DNA of 64,000 nucleotides, from positions 124,001 through 188,000 of the forward strand of contig NZ_JARWAC010000026.1 of the NCBI RefSeq assembly GCF_029846175.1. Reading direction: 5' to 3'. Both the position numbers and the translations under genes were made by a program. How positions within the stretch are numbered: position 1 is the stretch's first letter; each line of letters starts with the position of its first letter. The notes below the pieces were generated by a model. That model searched no databases. It had not been told where the DNA came from and saw nothing but the letters and a program-made list of their open reading frames with translations. This stretch comes from Sphaerisporangium sp. TRM90804. Its GTDB lineage: Bacteria > Actinomycetota > Actinomycetes > Streptosporangiales > Streptosporangiaceae. This document shows positions 9,796 through 18,380 of this stretch, piece after piece.

Positions 9796-11148
9796 ATGTC
9801 CCTCCGATGGGCGGCCGCGTGGCCCAGATCCATCCGCGGACAGGTCGCCGTTCTCACCCTCCTGTTGGCGACCCTCTTCCTCGTCCCCCTCGGCCTCGCG
9901 GCCGACATGGTGATCAGGAACACCGTCGCCCACACGCTGTGGCAGGAGACCAGGGTCGCCGCCGCCCGTGTCGTCGGCGCCTACCGCGAGTCCACCCTCC
10001 GCAACCCCATCGCCCCCCGCCCGGGGGGCGCCGACCTGATCCAGGTGACCGGGCCGGACGGCCGCCTGCTCGCGTCCACGCCGAAGGCCGAGCGGCTGCC
10101 CGTGCTCGACGGCGGCAAGCCCGCCCCCAACCGCAGCCGGGACTACGTGACCTGCCCGCGCTCGCCCACCGAGTGCTTCCACGTGACCGCGATCGCCACC
10201 AGCAACGCCCCCGGCGCGCCCGTGGTCTACGCCGCCGAGCCGACCCCGGCCCTGCTGACCACCCGCGCCCTGGACGTGGCGCTCGGGCTGCACGTCGTGG
10301 CGCTGGCGGCGCTGCTGGGCTGGCTCGCGTGGAAGGTCGCCCACCGCGCGCTGCAGACGGTCAACCACATCCAGGCGCAGCTCGCCCACATCACCGTCAG
10401 CGACCTGTCGGCCCGCGTCAGGGAGCCCTCCGGCGACAACGAGATCGCCCACCTGGCCAGGACCGTCAACAGCACGCTGGCCCGCCTGGAGCACTCGGTG
10501 GAGCAGCAGCGCCGCTTCGCCGCCGACGCCTCCCACGAGCTGCGCACCCCCATCGCCGGGCTGCGCGCCCAGCTTGAGGAGGCGCGGCTGCATCCCCAGC
10601 ACGTCGAGCTGGACACCCTGGTGGAGGGCGCCCTGCGCGACACCGACCGGCTGGAGGTCATCGTCACCGACCTGCTGTTCATGGCGCGGCTCGGGTCGAG
10701 CGGCCCGGCGGTGCAGGAGAGCGTCGATCTCGCCGACCTGGTGACCGCGCAGGCCAGGTGCTGCCCGCCGCGTGTGCCGGTCACCACCGACCTGGAGGAG
10801 GACGTGGTCGTGCTGGGCGTGCGCACCCAGCTCGCCCGGGTGGTCGACAACCTGCTCGGCAACGCCCAGCGGCACGCCGAGACGGCCATCACCGTGCGGC
10901 TGCGCGCCCACAAGGGCGAGGCCGTCCTGTCGGTCACCAACGACGGAGACCGCATCGCCGAGGAGGACCGCGAGCGGGTCTTCCACCGCTTCACCCGCCT
11001 GGACGCCTCCCGCAGCCGGGAGCTCGGCGGAACCGGCCTGGGGCTCGCCATCGCCCGCGACGTGGCCATCGCCCACGGCGGGACGCTGCACGTGGAGGAC
11101 GTATCGGAAGGAACCAGGTTCGTCCTGCGCCTTCCCGTGGTCGAATGA
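9796..11148 (+). CDS. Orphan sensor histidine kinase
   Basis: Membrane histidine kinase, 450 residues. One membrane helix near the N-terminus (VAVLTLLLATLFLVPLGLA), an extracellular sensor of about 130 residues with two Cys (VTCPRSPTECFH) and a second helix near residue 165 precede a HAMP linker, the H-box ASHELRTPIAGLRAQ, the N-box NLLGNAQRHA and the G-box GGTGLGLAIA. No response regulator is adjacent, so it is an orphan here. It is upstream of the nonulosonic acid locus but separated by 144 bp, so a functional link is only a possibility. Confidence 0.88.
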   Translation: MSLRWAAAWPRSIRGQVAVLTLLLATLFLVPLGLAADMVIRNTVAHTLWQETRVAAARVVGAYRESTLRNPIAPRPGGADLIQVTGPDGRLLASTPKAERLPVLDGGKPAPNRSRDYVTCPRSPTECFHVTAIATSNAPGAPVVYAAEPTPALLTTRALDVALGLHVVALAALLGWLAWKVAHRALQTVNHIQAQLAHITVSDLSARVREPSGDNEIAHLARTVNSTLARLEHSVEQQRRFAADASHELRTPIAGLRAQLEEARLHPQHVELDTLVEGALRDTDRLEVIVTDLLFMARLGSSGPAVQESVDLADLVTAQARCCPPRVPVTTDLEEDVVVLGVRTQLARVVDNLLGNAQRHAETAITVRLRAHKGEAVLSVTNDGDRIAEEDRERVFHRFTRLDASRSRELGGTGLGLAIARDVAIAHGGTLHVEDVSEGTRFVLRLPVVE

Positions 11149-11292
11149 GGCGTCCCCAAGTGTTAATGGGAGCTACGTCAGGCGTTCATCGGAGACCCCC
11201 CATGCTGGAGACGGCCGCTCGTTAGCGTGCGTGACACCCTCCGAGCGCCCCTGGCGAGCGCTCGTCGTTTCCGCATATCACAGGGAGTCATC

Positions 11293-13410
11293 TTGCGAGT
11301 CCTGGCCGTCGTCCCCGCCCGTGGCGGCTCTGTGGGCGTCCCGCTCAAGAACCTGGCGAAGGTGGGCGGCACGCCCCTCGTGGCCCGCGCGGTGGGCGCC
11401 TGCCGGGAGGCCGAGCTCGTCGACGAGGTCGTCGTCAGCACCGACCACCAGGGCATCGCCGCCACGGCGGCCCAGGCGGGCGCGCGGGTCGTCGACCGTC
11501 CCGCCGAGCTGAGCGGCTCGGCCGCCTCCAGCGAGTCGGCGCTGATCCACGCGCTCGGGCAGCTCGGCGCCGACCCCGAGGTCGTGGTGCTGGTGCAGTG
11601 CACCAGCGCCTTCATCGACCCGGCCGACCTGGACGCCGCGATCGCCAAGGTCCTCGACGGCACCGCCGACGTGGTGTTCTCCGGGCTGGAGACCCACGAG
11701 TTCGTGTGGGCGCCGCGCGACGGCGGCGTCGGCGGGGTCAACCACGACCCGGCCCACCGGCCGCGCCGCCAGGACCGCGACCCCGAGTACCGCGAGACCG
11801 GCGCGTTCTACGCGATCCGCGCCGCGGGCCTGCGCGAGCACGGCCACCGGTTCTTCGGCACCGTCGCCGTCCAGCCCGTCCCGGCCGGGCACGCCGTGGA
11901 GGTCGACACCCCCGACGACCTGGAGATCGTCCGGGCGCTGGCGCCCGTGGTCGACCGGCCCGGCCCGGTGGACGTCGACGCCGTGGTCACCGACTTCGAC
12001 GGCGTGCACACCGACGACCACGTCTTCGTCGACCAGGACGGCCACGAGACCGTGGCGGTCAGCCGCTCCGACGGCCTGGGCGTCGACCTGCTCAAGCGGT
12101 CGGGCGTGAAGGTGCTGGTGCTGTCCACCGAGCGCAACCCGGTCGTCTCCGCCCGCGCTCGCAAGCTGGGCGTGCCGGTGCTGCAGGGCCAGTCGGCCAA
12201 GCACGTCGCCCTGGGCGAGTGGATGACCGCCGAGGGGCTCGACCCGGCCCGTGTAGCCTACCTCGGCAACGACGTCAACGACCTCGGCTGCATGGACCTG
12301 GTCGGCTGGCCCGCCGCCGTCCCCGGCGCCGACCCGCGCGTCCTGGCCGCCGCCCGTGTCGTGCTCACCCGCCCCGGCGGCTCGGGCGCCGTGCGCGAGC
12401 TGTGCGACCGCGTGCTGGCCGCCCGGCCCGCCGTGGACCTCTCCCCGGTGCCCCCCGTCCCCGCGCCGGCGCCGCCCGCCCCGGTGCTGAGGGCCGTCCC
12501 GGTCGCGGAGGCCGCCCCCGCCCCCGCGGAGTCGCCCGCCGCGGCCGTGTGGATCGGCGAGTCGCCGGTCGGTCCCGGGCATCCGGTGTACATGATCGGC
12601 GAGATCGGCATCAACCACAACGGCGACCTCGACATCGCTCGCCGCCTCATCGACGTGGCGGCCGACGCCGGCTGCCAGGCGGTGAAGTTCCAGAAGCGCA
12701 CCCCCGAGATCGCCGTGCCGGTCCACCAGCGCGACCAGATGCGCCAGACCCCGTGGGGCGAGATGACCTACCTGGAGTACAAGTACCGGGTGGAGTTCGG
12801 CGCCGACGAGTACTCCCAGATCGCCAAGTACTGCGCCGAGCGCGGCGTCGACTGGTTCGCCTCGCCGTGGGACGTCCCGTCGGTCGACTTCCTGGAGGAC
12901 ATGGGCGTCGTCTGCCACAAGGTCGCCTCCGCCAGCGTCACCGACCGCGAGCTGCTGCGCAGGCTGGCCGCCACCGGCAAGCCGATCATCCTGTCGACCG
13001 GGATGTCGACGCTGGAGGAGATCGACGCCGCCGTGGAGATCCTCGGCACCGATAGGCTCGTGATGATGCACGCCACGTCCACCTACCCGCTCCCCCCCGA
13101 AGAGGCCAACCTGCGCGCCATCGTGACCCTCCGGGAGCGGTACGGCGTGCCGGTCGGCTACTCCGGTCACGAGCGCGGCCTGCAGATCTCGCTGGCCGCG
13201 GTCACCCTGGGCGCGGTCACCGTGGAGCGGCACATCACCCTGGACCGCACGATGTGGGGCTCCGACCACGCCGCCTCCCTGGAGCCGAACGGGTTGGAGC
13301 ACCTGGTCCGCGACATCCGGATCATCGAGTCGGCGCTCGGCGACGGCGTCAAGCGGGTCTTCCCGGGCGAAGAGGCCCCCAAGGCCCGCCTGCGCCGCGT
13401 CACCGACTGA
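11293..13410 (+). CDS. Trifunctional nonulosonic acid enzyme: CMP-sugar cytidylyltransferase / HAD phosphatase / NeuB-type synthase
   Basis: 705-residue fusion of three steps. Residues 1-225: acylneuraminate cytidylyltransferase (NeuA-like; AVVPARGGSVGVPLKNL, YRETGAFYAI, VEVDTPDDLEI), which would activate the sugar as its CMP derivative. Residues 230-375: HAD/KdsC-type phosphatase (VVTDFDGVHTDD, YLGNDVNDLGCM). After a Pro/Ala-rich linker, residues 425-705 form a NeuB-type synthase (IGEIGINHNGDLDIARRLID, AVKFQKRTPE, HATSTYPLPPEEANL, VPVGYSGHERG, MWGSDHAASLEP). NeuB enzymes condense phosphoenolpyruvate with a hexosamine or hexose; a phosphatase would remove a 9-phosphate. The C-terminal SAF domain of classical NeuB is absent. 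The TTG start at 11293 has GGGAG 6 nt upstream. It heads a run with two glycosyltransferases. Confidence 0.9.
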   Translation: MRVLAVVPARGGSVGVPLKNLAKVGGTPLVARAVGACREAELVDEVVVSTDHQGIAATAAQAGARVVDRPAELSGSAASSESALIHALGQLGADPEVVVLVQCTSAFIDPADLDAAIAKVLDGTADVVFSGLETHEFVWAPRDGGVGGVNHDPAHRPRRQDRDPEYRETGAFYAIRAAGLREHGHRFFGTVAVQPVPAGHAVEVDTPDDLEIVRALAPVVDRPGPVDVDAVVTDFDGVHTDDHVFVDQDGHETVAVSRSDGLGVDLLKRSGVKVLVLSTERNPVVSARARKLGVPVLQGQSAKHVALGEWMTAEGLDPARVAYLGNDVNDLGCMDLVGWPAAVPGADPRVLAAARVVLTRPGGSGAVRELCDRVLAARPAVDLSPVPPVPAPAPPAPVLRAVPVAEAAPAPAESPAAAVWIGESPVGPGHPVYMIGEIGINHNGDLDIARRLIDVAADAGCQAVKFQKRTPEIAVPVHQRDQMRQTPWGEMTYLEYKYRVEFGADEYSQIAKYCAERGVDWFASPWDVPSVDFLEDMGVVCHKVASASVTDRELLRRLAATGKPIILSTGMSTLEEIDAAVEILGTDRLVMMHATSTYPLPPEEANLRAIVTLRERYGVPVGYSGHERGLQISLAAVTLGAVTVERHITLDRTMWGSDHAASLEPNGLEHLVRDIRIIESALGDGVKRVFPGEEAPKARLRRVTD

Positions 13411-13458
13411 CCACACCGTCAAGGAGACCCGAACAGTGACCCATGCTCGGGAGCGCCG

Positions 13459-14421
13459 GTGACCACGCTGTCGGTCGTGGTGCCGGTGCGGGACGCCGAC
13501 CCGTTCATCGCCGACGCCCTCACCTCCCTGGTGCGCAACGCCCGGCCCGACTTCGAGTTCATCGTGGTCGACGACGGGTCGGCCGACCAGACCCCGCAGA
13601 TCATCGACGACTTCCGCGGGCGCCTGCCCGGCCTGTCCGTGCTGCGCAACAGCACCCCGGCCGGGCTGGCGGACGCGCGCAACGCCGGCCTCGCCGCGGC
13701 GTCCGGCCGCTACGTCACCTTCCTCGACGGCGACGACTGGCTGGCGCGCGGCTACCTGGCCGATCTGGTGGACGCAGCGGAGACGCTGGGCTGCGACTTC
13801 GTCCGGGTCGACCACGTGCAGGTGGAGGGGCGCAAGCGCGTCACCCACCGGGCGCCGGAGGCCCGGCGCGGCGTGGTGCTGCGCCCCCGCGACCACATCG
13901 TGCCCGTCCGCGCCAAGACGATGGTCGACTACCCGTACGCCTGGGCGGGCGTCTACCGGCGCGAGCTGGGCGATCTTCTCGCCTTCCCCGGCCACCTGCA
14001 CACCGCCGAGGACCGCCCGTGGATCTGGCGCCTGCACCGCGAGGCGCGCTCGTTCGCGGTGGTCTCCCTGGCCGGGGTGTTCTACCGGCGGCTGGTGCCC
14101 ACCTCGCTCACCCAGATCGGAGACGAACGGCAGCTCCACTTCTTCGACGCCTTCGAGCTGGTGCTCAAGCAGGTCGAGGAGGAGCCCGATCTGCGGCCGA
14201 AGGCGGTGCGCACCTTCTGCGCGCTGCTGGCGCACCACCTGGAGCTGGCCGGCCGCTTCTCCCCCGACCTGCGGGCCCGCTTCACCGCCCGCGCGCAGGA
14301 CGCCCTGGCGGGCCTGACGCCCGGCGAGATCGCCGCGGCCGGCCTGGAGGCCGACCGCCTCCAGCTGCTGCGTCCCCTGCTCCCCCGGCACCACGCAGAG
14401 TCCCAGGAGCGCTTCCCATGA
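13459..14421 (+). CDS. GT2-family glycosyltransferase
   Basis: Cytoplasmic or membrane-associated glycosyltransferase, 320 residues, no membrane helix. The GT-A fold shows LSVVVPVRDADPFIADALTS, the nucleotide-binding VVDDGSADQT and the metal-binding FLDGDDW. The C-terminal half is typical of wall-polymer transferases. GTG at 13459 has GGGAG about 5 nt upstream; the gene overlaps the next by ATGA. Sitting between the sugar-activating fusion and a polysialyltransferase-like enzyme, it probably adds a sugar to, or primes, the same polymer (inference). Confidence 0.87.
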   Translation: MTTLSVVVPVRDADPFIADALTSLVRNARPDFEFIVVDDGSADQTPQIIDDFRGRLPGLSVLRNSTPAGLADARNAGLAAASGRYVTFLDGDDWLARGYLADLVDAAETLGCDFVRVDHVQVEGRKRVTHRAPEARRGVVLRPRDHIVPVRAKTMVDYPYAWAGVYRRELGDLLAFPGHLHTAEDRPWIWRLHREARSFAVVSLAGVFYRRLVPTSLTQIGDERQLHFFDAFELVLKQVEEEPDLRPKAVRTFCALLAHHLELAGRFSPDLRARFTARAQDALAGLTPGEIAAAGLEADRLQLLRPLLPRHHAESQERFP

Positions 14422-15692
14422 CCCAGGTCTTCTACAGCTCCACGCTCTTCGGGGCGATGACCCTCGCCGCGGCCGTCGACGCCGGCAGGTTCGGCGCCCG
14501 CACCGGGCGCCGCGTTCTGCTGGTGTCCAACAACGCCGCGATCCCGGAGATCACGCCGTCCCTGGACGAGACGGCGGGCTTCGAGGCGATCCGGCCGCGC
14601 TTCGACGAGGTGTGGTCCTACAACGACATCGTGGCGCCGCTGCACCCCTCCGACTGGAGGGCGCGGGTCATCGAGGTGCCCATGCTCTCGCGCATGCTGC
14701 GGGCGCACCTGAGGCTCGCCGACGGCCCGGCCGAGCTGATCGTGGAGTCCATCGCGGTGCCCCCGGCCAGGACCCTGGCCGGCCTGATCCGCGACTGCCC
14801 GATCACGGTGTACTCCGACGGGCTGATGAGCTACGGGCCGACGCGCGACCCGCTGCCACTGGAGATCTCCGGGCGGATCACCCGGCTGCTCCACCTCGAC
14901 CTGGTGCCCGAGCTGACGCCGCTGCTGCTGCGGGAGGCCGGCGTCGCGCCCGACCCGCTGCCGGACGCCGCCTTCCACCGGGTGCTCGCCGACATCCCGG
15001 CACCCGAGGACCTCGAAGGGGACGCCGTCATCCTCGGCCAGTACCTGTCGGCCCTGGACATCGTCACCGCCGAGGAGGAGGAGCGGCTGCACGCCGACAT
15101 GCTCGCCGCGGTCGCCGCCCGCGGGCACACCAAGGTGCTGTTCAAGCCGCATCCGGCGGCCGGGCACCGCCATTCCCTGCGGATGCGGGCCGCGGCCGCC
15201 GAGCTGGGCGTCGAGCTGCACGTGGCGGGCGAGACGGTGCCGGCCGAGGTCTGCTTCAAGGCGCTGCGCCCGAAGCTGGTCGTCGGCTGCTTCTCCACCG
15301 CGCTGGTCACCGCGCACCGCCTGTTCGGGCTGCCGATCGCCACGATGGGCTGCGACGTCGTCCTCGAACGGCTCGCGCCGTACGAGAACAGCAACCGCGT
15401 CCCGGTCACGATCGTCGACGCGACCGTGCCCCGTCTCTCCCCCGACGGCACGATCACCGAGCCGCCGGCCGCCGACGTGCCCGCGCTGGTGGAGGCGGTG
15501 GGCTTCTGCATGCAGAGCGAGCACTACCCCGAGCTTCGCGACGCGGCCGCCGCCTATATCGAGACCCACGGCGCCCAGGCGCGCTACTTCAAGAACCGGC
15601 GCCTGGCGTCGGTGGGGCTGGTGCCGGCGCCCGAGCCGCCGACCACGGCCTCCCGGGCGCTGGGCCGGCTCCGCCGCGTCCTGGCCCGCTGA
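14418..15692 (+). CDS. Polysialyltransferase-family glycosyltransferase
   Basis: 424 residues. The sequence resembles the alpha-2,8-polysialyltransferase family (GT38-like). It shows the three motifs shared by bacterial GT38/GT52-type sialyltransferases: an acidic-Gly motif (VYSDGLMSYGP), an HP motif (VLFKPHPAAGH) and a Ser/Thr motif (VGCFSTALVT). The substrate should be the CMP-nonulosonate made by the upstream fusion, polymerised or attached at the cytoplasmic face. It is translationally coupled to the GT2 gene (4-bp overlap) and ends before a strong terminator. The acceptor and the linkage cannot be read from sequence. Confidence 0.82.
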   Translation: MTQVFYSSTLFGAMTLAAAVDAGRFGARTGRRVLLVSNNAAIPEITPSLDETAGFEAIRPRFDEVWSYNDIVAPLHPSDWRARVIEVPMLSRMLRAHLRLADGPAELIVESIAVPPARTLAGLIRDCPITVYSDGLMSYGPTRDPLPLEISGRITRLLHLDLVPELTPLLLREAGVAPDPLPDAAFHRVLADIPAPEDLEGDAVILGQYLSALDIVTAEEEERLHADMLAAVAARGHTKVLFKPHPAAGHRHSLRMRAAAAELGVELHVAGETVPAEVCFKALRPKLVVGCFSTALVTAHRLFGLPIATMGCDVVLERLAPYENSNRVPVTIVDATVPRLSPDGTITEPPAADVPALVEAVGFCMQSEHYPELRDAAAAYIETHGAQARYFKNRRLASVGLVPAPEPPTTASRALGRLRRVLAR

Positions 15693-15696
15693 CCCC

Positions 15697-15743
15697 GACG
15701 CCCCCGGGCGCCCGGCCGGGGGGGCCGGGCGCCCGGGGGCGTC
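15697..15743. terminator. Strong bidirectional hairpin terminator
   Basis: A perfect 21-bp GC-rich stem (left arm 15697-15717, right arm 15723-15743) with a 5-nt G loop lies between two convergent transcription units, 5 bp after the stop of the polysialyltransferase-like gene. Confidence 0.8.
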
Positions 15744-15885
15744 TCGTCGCGGCCCGCCGGACCGTGCCCGTCACGCGCCGTGGCCCACCCGGCCCACGCC
15801 GACGGGCACAGGCCGTCACGGCGTGGGGCGGGCTCCGTCCGCGCCGGACGCCGCCTCGTCCCCCGGCGCGCGGCCGTCTCGTGGG

Positions 15886-17352
15886 TCAGCCGAGGGCCTT
15901 GAGGTAGCGGCGCACCCGGCGGCGGGCGCGGTAGCCGGCCCTGAGCACGTTCGGCGGCACCTCGACGCGCATGCGGGCGCGGCGGCGGGCGGCCACGTGG
16001 GCGGGGCCGTCCAGCAGCGGGCGCGCGGGGGGCAGCCCGCCGGTGTGCGACCGCTCCACCAGCGCGGCGAGCCGGCCGGTCCAGTCGCTCAGGGCGGGGT
16101 CGTGGAAGTAGTTGGCGTCGCACCAGGCGGCCGTGGGCTGACGGAACTCCCCGCGCGCGAGGTCGTCGAGGGTGCCGAGGCACCCGCTGTCCTCGAACAC
16201 CAGGTTGATCATCTCGGCGCTGACCCCGAAGTCGGACAGCACCAGCAGCGGCACCCGCCCGGCGATGGCCTCCAGGGCGGCCGTGGAGCTGACCGTCACG
16301 AACGCCGACGCCCTCGCCAGGTGCTCGTGCATGGGCCCGGCGGCGAAGCGGACGGCGCCGGGGCGCACGGCGCCGGTCTCCACCAGCGAGCGCCACAGCC
16401 GCTCGTAGTGGTGGCGCTCGTTGTGGGTCTGGCGCTCGGACTCCAGGGCGCGCAGCTTCACCACGACGTCGAGGTCGGGGCGGGCGTCGGCGAGGGCCGC
16501 GAGGGCGAGCAGGATGCTCTCACGCTCCTCACGGCGCCTGGGCACCTTCGCCTGCGTCGCGAAGATCACCCGGTCGGCGGCGGGCGAGGCGAGCGGCGCC
16601 ATGCCCTCGGCCGGCACCACCGCGCCGGGCACGACGTCGCCGGCCGCGCGGCCGGGCACGACCGCTGCCGGCACGACCACGCCGGGCACCGCGGCTGCCC
16701 CGGCGGCCGTCGCGCCCGGTGCGGGGGCCTGGCCGGCGGGCACGGTGGGCACGACCGCGCCGGACGCCGCGGCGGCCGTCACCCCCGGCGCGGGGCCCGG
16801 CCCGGTGGGAGCGGCGGGCGGCAACGGCGCGGGCGCGGCCGGCCGGGCGGCGCCGTGGTCGAGGTAGGGCAGGCGGGCCAGGCCCACGGAGCCCGCGGCG
16901 CCCAGCTCCTTGCCGATGCGGCCGAACTCCTCGACCTCCTTGCCGCTGTGCACGACGAAGAGGTCGCAGGCGCCGCGGAAGAGCCAGGCCTTCTCGGTGG
17001 CGGGGATGGAGATGCCCGGCAGGCCCGAGACGAACACCGGGCGCGGGACCAGCCCGGCCAGCACCTCGCTCACCAGCACGTCGACGACCGGCCCCGTGCA
17101 GGCGACGAGGACGGCGTCGGGCCGGGTGCGCTCGGCGATGCGGCGCAGGGCCCGGGCCGACACCACCACGGGCGGCTCGTGCGCCCCGGCCCGGGTGCCG
17201 CTGACGGCGGCGGCCACCTGGGCGGGCGACGGCAGGATCGGCGTGCGGACCACGGTGAGCGTCGACGACCACCCGGACGGGAGTTGGTCCAGCAGGCCCG
17301 CCGCCCACTTCAGGTAGGAGTCTGAGTCGGCGACGGCGAGAACCCGGGTCAA
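15886..17352 (-). CDS. DUF6716-like putative glycosyltransferase with Ala/Pro-rich insert
   Basis: 488 residues. The N-terminal half is Rossmann-like (RVLAVADSDSYLKWAAGLLD; VFVSGLPGISIPATEKAW; DLFVVHSGKEVEEF). The C-terminal half resembles a GT-B nucleotide-binding domain (VIFATQAKVPRRREERESIL; VVVKLRALESE; HEHLARASAFVTVSSTAALEAI). This layout matches the uncharacterised actinobacterial DUF6716 'putative glycosyltransferase' proteins (recognised from memory). Residues about 168-260 are an inserted low-complexity block of Ala, Pro, Val and Gly between the two halves. TTG start at 17352 overlaps the upstream stop by 4 bp and has AAAGG 8 nt upstream. It probably works with the nonulosonate polymer locus it faces. 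Confidence 0.72.
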   Translation of the reverse strand: MTRVLAVADSDSYLKWAAGLLDQLPSGWSSTLTVVRTPILPSPAQVAAAVSGTRAGAHEPPVVVSARALRRIAERTRPDAVLVACTGPVVDVLVSEVLAGLVPRPVFVSGLPGISIPATEKAWLFRGACDLFVVHSGKEVEEFGRIGKELGAAGSVGLARLPYLDHGAARPAAPAPLPPAAPTGPGPAPGVTAAAASGAVVPTVPAGQAPAPGATAAGAAAVPGVVVPAAVVPGRAAGDVVPGAVVPAEGMAPLASPAADRVIFATQAKVPRRREERESILLALAALADARPDLDVVVKLRALESERQTHNERHHYERLWRSLVETGAVRPGAVRFAAGPMHEHLARASAFVTVSSTAALEAIAGRVPLLVLSDFGVSAEMINLVFEDSGCLGTLDDLARGEFRQPTAAWCDANYFHDPALSDWTGRLAALVERSHTGGLPPARPLLDGPAHVAARRRARMRVEVPPNVLRAGYRARRRVRRYLKALG

Positions 17353-18380
17353 GGGGAAGACCTTTCGTGCGCGAACATCTGCAGGTGTGTACGGAGCGAC
17401 ACGCTGGCCGAGGGCGTCCACCAGTCGTCGGGGACGTCGACGGTCTCGACGGGGACGCCGCGCGCCGACAGCAGCACGCGCAGCGAGGTGACCGCCGTGG
17501 ACGGGAGGCTCAGCACACGCTGCCCGGGACGCAGGTCGCGGAGGGTCATCTCGACCGGCACCCCGCCGTCGTACACCGTAACACCGGGATGGTCGCGCAC
17601 GGCGGCGAGATCACCGGGGTCCTCGCGCCGGTGCGGGTAGTAGGCCAGCGGGCCCTGGAGGGCGAACAGCCATGACAGGTAGCGGTCGCGGTGGATCAGG
17701 CCGTTGCGCACCAGGGACGTGCCCAGCACGACGGTGTTCTCGGCCGGGCGGGGGTGGGCCAGGGAGGGCTGGGACCGCAGCCACGCGAAGTCGTGGGTCA
17801 CCAGCTCGGCGCCGAGCGCCCGCACCTCCTTGGCGAGGTCGGCCGGCACGGGCAGCGCGGTGAAGATCGTCAGCCGGCCCGCGCGGGCGGCGGCCCGCAG
17901 CCGGACCCCGGCGGCCGCGCCGAGCACGCGCCGCCCGAGGCCGGACTCGGCCCTGGCGCGCAGCAGCGGCGTGCCCCCCTTGGCGACCAGGAGCTCCAGC
18001 AGCCGGATCGTGGCCAGGCCGTCGTCCACGACGACCAGGCGCGAGGGGGCGGAGGTCAGCGAGGTGAGCTGCATCCGGCCGGAGAAGGCGTCGCCGAGCA
18101 CCCAGTCGGCGTGGCGTCCCGGGCGGGGCATGCCGTCCTCGGCGGTCTCCATCATCAGGCCCTCGGGCAGGTCGAGGGAGGCCAGCTCTCTGCGCGTCAC
18201 GCGCAGCGCCGGCAGCTTGGCGCGGGTCACCACCCGGGTGGCCGGCCCGACCACCTGGGCGTACCGCGCCTCCACGGCGCAGAGCAGTTGGAGGGGGGAC
18301 TCCACCCACGCGACGGCCGACCCCTGCTCCCGCACGCGGCTTCGACCGATCCTCTCCACGCCGGGTATTGACACGTTCAC
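17349..18380 (-). CDS. Putative sialyltransferase-like protein (GT52-like motifs)
   Basis: 343 residues, no signal peptide or membrane helix. The start VAWVESPLQLLCAVEARYAQ resembles the 'SPLQLLNAIE' opening of GT52 family lipooligosaccharide sialyltransferases. Further in are VVVDDGLATI (acidic-Gly motif), LAYYPHRRED (a PH in the place of the HP motif) and SLPSTAVTS (Ser/Thr motif), in the order expected of bacterial sialyltransferases. It is first in a two-gene unit with the DUF6716-like gene. GTG at 18380 gives the longest protein; a GTG 15 codons in is possible. Function is inferred from motifs and from the neighbouring CMP-sugar enzymes. Confidence 0.6.
   Translation of the reverse strand: MNVSIPGVERIGRSRVREQGSAVAWVESPLQLLCAVEARYAQVVGPATRVVTRAKLPALRVTRRELASLDLPEGLMMETAEDGMPRPGRHADWVLGDAFSGRMQLTSLTSAPSRLVVVDDGLATIRLLELLVAKGGTPLLRARAESGLGRRVLGAAAGVRLRAAARAGRLTIFTALPVPADLAKEVRALGAELVTHDFAWLRSQPSLAHPRPAENTVVLGTSLVRNGLIHRDRYLSWLFALQGPLAYYPHRREDPGDLAAVRDHPGVTVYDGGVPVEMTLRDLRPGQRVLSLPSTAVTSLRVLLSARGVPVETVDVPDDWWTPSASVSLRTHLQMFAHERSSP

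Follow-up and report, generated by a model that had tools for sequence, protein, structure and literature searches.

In Streptomyces coelicolor, a gene region that includes SCO4877-SCO4882 is reportedly named, in the title of a 2014 paper by Ostash, as involved in teichulosonic acid. Here we describe a related locus in a window of 64,000 nucleotides from Sphaerisporangium sp. TRM90804 (contig NZ_JARWAC010000026.1, positions 124,001 to 188,000), in which one gene fuses a NeuA-like, a phosphatase-like and a NeuB-like domain; all positions below are those of this window. According to the available parts of the sources, the major wall glycopolymer of S. coelicolor is a teichulosonic acid built from galactose and 3-deoxy-D-glycero-D-galacto-nonulosonic acid (Kdn) (PMC7831098), teichulosonic acid with Kdn likewise occurs in streptomycetes (PMC11481543), and SCO4873-SCO4882 is under PhoP control (PMC13011467). 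The gene order SCO4877-SCO4882, as far as tabulated in PMC2267785 and PMC8269224, fits six Streptomyces-type loci of one other family, which read PF07388 and GT2 on the minus strand, then DUF6716, NeuA-phosphatase, NeuB and an SCO4882-type gene on the plus strand. The window locus holds all of these core types together, and the link to the S. coelicolor region drawn in the original prediction is upheld at the level of gene types, with SCO4877-SCO4882 assigned by gene order. Like SCO4873-SCO4882 (core SCO4877-SCO4882), it combines six core gene types with a repeat operator (in S. coelicolor, published Pho control) and a proposed phosphate-free wall polymer. However, NeuB is here fused to NeuA-phosphatase, and strands and gene order are rearranged.

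Within the same bacterial family, Planobispora rosea EV45_RS38880 and EV45_RS15220-15235 are tabulated as Pho-activated orthologues of SCO4877, 4878, 4879, 4880 and 4882, in a paper whose available text does not mention a fusion (PMC8269224); the complete fusion is present in one P. rosea strain. Another source describes a teichuronic-acid-like polymer and is not drawn on for the Kdn pathway (PMC13274773, available part). The chemistry proposed here follows the same series as in Bacteroides thetaiotaomicron and Prymnesium parvum, from mannose 6-phosphate through Kdn-9-phosphate and Kdn to cytidine monophosphate (CMP)-Kdn, but those enzymes are separate proteins with demonstrated activity (PMC6200933, in the part available), whereas ours are predicted from sequence. 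In vertebrate CMP-sialic acid synthetase (CMAS), too, a KdsC-like domain comes after the NeuA domain (the two parts find matches in mouse 1qwj and 3ewi), but no synthase domain is attached. Pathway and polymer class are thus already known. What appears new, as far as the search went, is the trifunctional enzyme and its pairing with the operator described below; the NeuA-phosphatase-NeuB fusion is named in no title or abstract opening found in the open-licence literature. We consider it likely that, when phosphate is short, CMP-Kdn is produced by this locus and incorporated into a phosphate-free wall polymer of the teichulosonic acid type.

The Fused Enzyme and Its Probable Substrate

The fusion gene has a TTG start preceded by AGGGAG (11282-11287). 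In its product, a NeuA-like domain (residues ~4-213; Pfam CTP_transf_3, 1.3e-20) is followed by a KdsC-type HAD phosphatase (228-381), placed between the other two by NCBIfam, and, after a Pro/Ala-rich linker, by a NeuB-like domain running from residue 419 to the end (Pfam NeuB, 7e-83). The sample for comparison was the best 80 of at least 93 relatives in named genomes, and carries no information on other families. Catalytic motifs are intact in the window protein and retained in all 78 full-length fused relatives, the HAD part showing its catalytic DxD and GNDxND motifs in 78/78. These domains and motifs, read directly, bear out the proposal that one gene encodes three successive steps; substrate and reaction order we infer.

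The NeuB domain would join mannose 6-phosphate and phosphoenolpyruvate into Kdn-9-phosphate, the HAD domain would take off the 9-phosphate, and the NeuA domain would turn Kdn and cytidine triphosphate (CTP) into CMP-Kdn. This is the best-supported chemistry, judging from sequence features: Kdn from mannose 6-phosphate, already favoured in the original prediction, is preferred because there is no recognised source of N-acetylmannosamine (ManNAc), because the SAF domain and its Arg314 are missing, and because a phosphatase is built in. Profile searches of the host genome (8.3 Mb in 86 contigs, with a single NeuB match) found neither NanE nor an N-acetylglucosamine (GlcNAc) 2-epimerase. Its one Epimerase_2 protein scores as WecB type (273 bits; cut-off 210) and reaches just 55 bits for NeuC (cut-off 236). 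The earlier remark that the window holds no ManNAc 2-epimerase thus extends genome-wide, as far as four family searches reach. Two proteins score over the cut-off of the bact-PGI_C family, and judging from that family they are a possible source of mannose 6-phosphate.

Residue roles in Neisseria meningitidis NeuB, including contact of ManNAc by Arg314 of the SAF domain, are given in PMC6795526 (available part). In alignment with that enzyme the synthase keeps Glu25, Gln55, Lys129, Tyr186, Ser213, His215 and Glu234; Asn74 falls in a gap, Thr110 is replaced by Ser, Phe112 by Trp and Asn184 by Ser, and Phe288 is not placeable. The C-terminal SAF (antifreeze-like) domain with Arg314 is absent, and in 78/78 the fused protein ends 23-24 residues after the GDG motif begins. 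The best solved match of the synthase is chain 6ncs (290 aa), from an organism that we take to be Leptospira-like; hence a synthase without SAF is not unique. In P. parvum, the Kdn-9-phosphate synthetase accepted mannose 6-phosphate but did not take six other sugars, and the CMP-Kdn synthetase did not use N-acetylneuraminic acid (Neu5Ac), according to the available part of PMC6200933.

The signature ARGGSxG of the NeuA domain differs between fused and split loci. Among the 80 fused loci, x is Ala in 41, Val in 38 and Thr in one, while 18 of 22 split loci have Lys, one Gln and one Arg, with two not read. Neisseria and mouse enzymes have Lys at this position. The best solved relative of the domain, PpNeuA (9t4z), presumably the P. 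parvum enzyme to go by its name, has Val (ARGGSVS). Replacement of the Lys is not required for Kdn, because the Streptomyces-type loci retain it.

The Operator and Probable Phosphate Control

PHO boxes consist of direct repeats of 11 nt and differ in sequence from one species to another (PMC4415409, available part). Upstream of the fusion, a direct-repeat operator of this type is seen in nearly every named locus: GTTMA-N17-GTTMA, with units 22 bp apart, lies <=400 nt ahead of the gene in 76/80, against 7 matches in the remaining 2,135,874 nt, a post hoc count over loci of common descent, in that the GTTMA form was first spotted by eye in the regions later counted. A further 3/80 have the pair at 11-bp spacing, and one has neither. 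The same motif recurs in a gap of the host genome, flanked on one side by phoU (PhoU, 129 bits) and on the other by a divergent gene for a histidine kinase, itself followed by a response-regulator-like start. This gap is an out-of-sample test of the motif, with one match on a background of 7 per 2.1 Mb. TAGCGT follows the motif at both sites, 61 nt from the motif start at the fusion and 39 nt at phoU. In the GT2-DUF6716 gap of the six Streptomyces-type loci, GTT units stand at 11-bp steps by eye, and a regular expression finds N17 pairs in 3/6, on the other strand. Of the split loci within the family, L034 and L035 carry a pair spaced 11 bp, on the opposite strand, and L036 lacks one; in split loci L129-L132 less exact units are seen by eye at 22-bp spacing. 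For TIGR00975 (PstS), the host genome gave only a below-cut-off match.

The locus probably belongs to the Pho regulon, a subject outside the original prediction, because the operator precedes the fusion in most loci and recurs in the phoU-kinase gap, in agreement with the transcripts of the P. rosea orthologues, which resemble those of PhoP-activated genes in the available part of PMC8269224. The operon would then be switched on by PhoP binding at the upstream repeat. In Herbidospora (L104-L106), the operator contains an additional GTTCA between two GTTAA units.

Weighing the Alternatives

Several observations weigh against this reading. Every domain falls under all NCBIfam equivalog cut-offs matched (Neu5Ac, Pse and Kdn-9-phosphatase models), and the family models therefore leave the substrate unset. 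The synthase reaches 268.3 bits for the N-acetylneuraminate synthase TIGR03569 (cut-off 399.65) and 211.5 bits for PseI (340.25), the NeuA domain 98.9 bits for the cytidylyltransferase PseF (205.7), and the phosphatase 78 bits for the Kdn-9-phosphate phosphatase NF058599 (180); the HAD part is also below the cut-off of the KdsC-type model TIGR01670 (79.8; 106.95). The host genome has no match to the type I mannose-6-phosphate isomerase family. Loss of the signature Lys in all 80 fused loci could mean altered or weak activity, and RPRRQD of the NeuA domain is exact in just 64/78 fused proteins. Besides the post hoc nature of the operator count, a strict scan for GTTCACC with <=3 mismatches gave a weak excess (9/79 upstream regions, ~3.6 expected from shuffles), and the operator units in the window partly deviate from GTTCACC. 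The SCO numbers of the window genes come from gene order and paper tables, not from S. coelicolor sequence, and the polymer of P. rosea is called teichuronic in the available text of PMC8269224.

Three partly overlapping alternatives draw on these points. The fusion could instead start from ManNAc-6-phosphate and yield CMP-Neu5Ac, or a different N-acylated nonulosonate, to supply a polymer like polysialic acid: the PF07388 partner family is named for polysialyltransferases, and N-acetylneuraminate synthase is the NCBIfam model that fits the synthase best, even if its 268 bits fall short of the cut-off of 400. We regard this as unlikely, given a host genome without NanE, GlcNAc 2-epimerase or NeuC over its cut-off, a synthase without SAF domain and Arg314, and a Streptomyces polymer that contains Kdn (PMC7831098, available part). 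It is quite unlikely that CMP-Kdn is destined for a product other than a wall teichulosonic acid, for instance a capsule or a glycan on protein or lipid. Although the five genes include neither an exporter nor a wall ligase, and the name of the PF07388 family may point to a capsular-type enzyme, the gene set is that of the Streptomyces region linked with a wall polymer, and a Pho-type operator suits the replacement of phosphate-rich wall polymers. Finally, the uniform loss of the signature Lys would fit an impaired or regulatory NeuA domain, with Kdn activated by another protein; yet the solved PpNeuA likewise has Val there and the domain is conserved in 78/78, making this very unlikely.

CMP-Kdn for a wall polymer under phosphate limitation is retained as the preferred account. 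A more specific version may be suggested tentatively: the Streptosporangiaceae protein would be a single-chain CMP-Kdn synthase using mannose 6-phosphate, phosphoenolpyruvate and CTP, its SAF-less synthase and Lys-less NeuA domain specialised for a non-acylated sugar, and a three-domain oligomer would channel intermediates, committing mannose 6-phosphate to the wall polymer under PhoP.

Origin and Distribution of the Fusion

The tree comprised 50 proteins, 28 fused and 22 split; from the 78 named fusions that are whole, 21 were included, picked for spread; L143 was left out, as no called gene matched. All 28 fused proteins lie on one side of a single branch (support 100/99), and next to them in the tree are seven split loci from within the GTDB family. 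NeuB starts 2-54 bases past the end of the NeuA-phosphatase gene in six of the seven. The seventh, L035, was roughly called, as were some other gene starts in split loci (a home-made gene caller was used), and its gap is read elsewhere as 6 bases. Neighbouring genes thus appear to have been joined once, since the fused proteins form one side of a branch while sister lineages keep two adjacent genes, and the simplest account of the sequences is a single loss of the stop between them. All 22 split loci already have NeuA and phosphatase within one gene, so that only the joining of NeuB would be the lineage-specific step.

All 80 named loci belong to Streptosporangiaceae (15 genera); 78 contain the whole fusion (678-706 aa) and two are cut by contig ends. 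The nearest among them are from five Sphaerisporangium species (82-84%, best segment). Of 80 genomes surveyed within the GTDB family, 34 match and 46 do not. The 34 comprise 24 fused without a stop (the host included), four with one in-frame TAG, two with separate adjacent genes, one with parts on different contigs, and three weak or partial matches. Across the GTDB class, 70/197 genomes match at some level. An assembly or annotation artefact is rejected, the fusion being open end to end in 24/80 family genomes and whole in 78/80 named loci.

The named loci extend ~14 kb at most, and a gene counted absent may sit past the locus end. Within this limit, GT2 and PF07388 genes are found downstream in 77/80, DUF6716 in 63/80 and the SCO4882-type gene in 49/80; GT2 is at least 2 kb more distant in a few loci (e.g., L055, L060, L065, L115, L119). 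Fusion and partners accordingly recur across the family. Its labels "minimal" and "self-contained" fail: the core types are shared with the six Streptomyces-type loci (two types being fused here), the arrangement is common in Streptosporangiaceae, and exporter and wall ligase are both lacking from the five genes.

Some relatives depart from the common pattern. In Planotetraspora thailandica (L081, the locus with neither operator spacing), DUF6716 comes next after the fusion, the 9.6-kb locus yielded neither GT2 nor PF07388, and its operator is degenerate. No DUF6716 or SCO4882-type gene was detected in the Herbidospora loci (14 kb). Nine fusion-bearing relatives (G204, G210, G223, G243, G254, G257, G258, G260 and G131) have a second, distant NeuB homologue elsewhere (37-41% identity), which perhaps marks another nonulosonate locus. 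One family genome (G256) has just two short NeuA-domain pieces, 67-68% identical and with short open frames (C24:248612-248890 and C25:740031-740375), perhaps remnants of a lost locus.

Partner Genes

The originally predicted gene coordinates are correct by open reading frame and domain calls, and the glycosyltransferase character of the partners is supported by their families and predicted folds (Table 1). GT2 and PF07388 genes run in the same direction as the fusion, and the other two converge on them. The DUF6716 gene may start further upstream, as far as 17421. Directly upstream of the operon lies a sensor histidine kinase gene (9796-11148), next to which no response regulator was called; a kinase homologue of some sort is present in 52/80 named loci, in variable position.

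Table 1. Features of the putative nonulosonate locus in the window.
Feature	Position	Strand	Basis
Triple fusion, NeuA-like + KdsC/HAD phosphatase-like + NeuB-like, 705 aa	11293..13410	+	Pfam, NCBIfam, motifs
GT2 glycosyltransferase, SCO4878 type, 320 aa	13459..14421	+	PF00535, 1.2e-30
PF07388 polysialyltransferase-like protein, SCO4877 type, 424 aa	14418..15692	+	Pfam, 2.2e-24
DUF6716 putative glycosyltransferase, SCO4879 type, predicted GT-B-like fold	15886..17352	-	PF20471, 2.8e-126
Protein without Pfam match, SCO4882 type, predicted GT-B-like fold	17349..18380	-	predicted structure and Foldseek
Probable PhoP operator, GTTAA-N17-GTTCA, two units 22 bp apart	11162..11188	+	repeat pattern
TAGCGT, possible -10 hexamer	11223..11228	+	by eye

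Polymer assembly would fall to the GT2, PF07388, DUF6716 and sialyltransferase-like proteins; export and attachment of the polymer are not accounted for by the five genes. The model of the SCO4882-type protein has a mean predicted local distance difference test score (pLDDT) of 90.2, and its 12 Foldseek matches at E <=0.001 are nine Neisseria and Pasteurella sialyltransferases and three plant glycosyltransferases (best E 3.5e-06, TM-scores 0.28-0.48, high root-mean-square deviation). It may be a GT-B enzyme, possibly using a CMP-sugar. The DUF6716 model (mean pLDDT 80.6) is GT-B-like by Foldseek, and the 50 matches listed are mostly non-hydrolysing UDP-GlcNAc 2-epimerases or related sugar epimerases, with few glycosyltransferases, at 9-14% identity. 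A role as a ManNAc-making epimerase is rejected by sequence, as the protein has no BLASTP similarity to the WecB-type protein of the host (best E 0.28), and is also disfavoured by the absence of short epimerase motifs. At 488 aa, against 375-423 aa in 49 relatives, it has a low-complexity insert rich in Ala, Val, Pro and Gly (residues ~180-251, window ~16600-16815; pLDDT <50).

Conclusions

The locus would provide a one-gene route to CMP-Kdn that is directly testable. Its recognisable operator would connect the nonulosonate wall polymers of an actinomycete family with phosphate starvation, and the fused clade and its sister with adjacent genes offer a natural comparison for what is gained by joining successive enzymes. 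Two uncharacterised glycosyltransferase-like families are also pointed to as possible members of the pathway.

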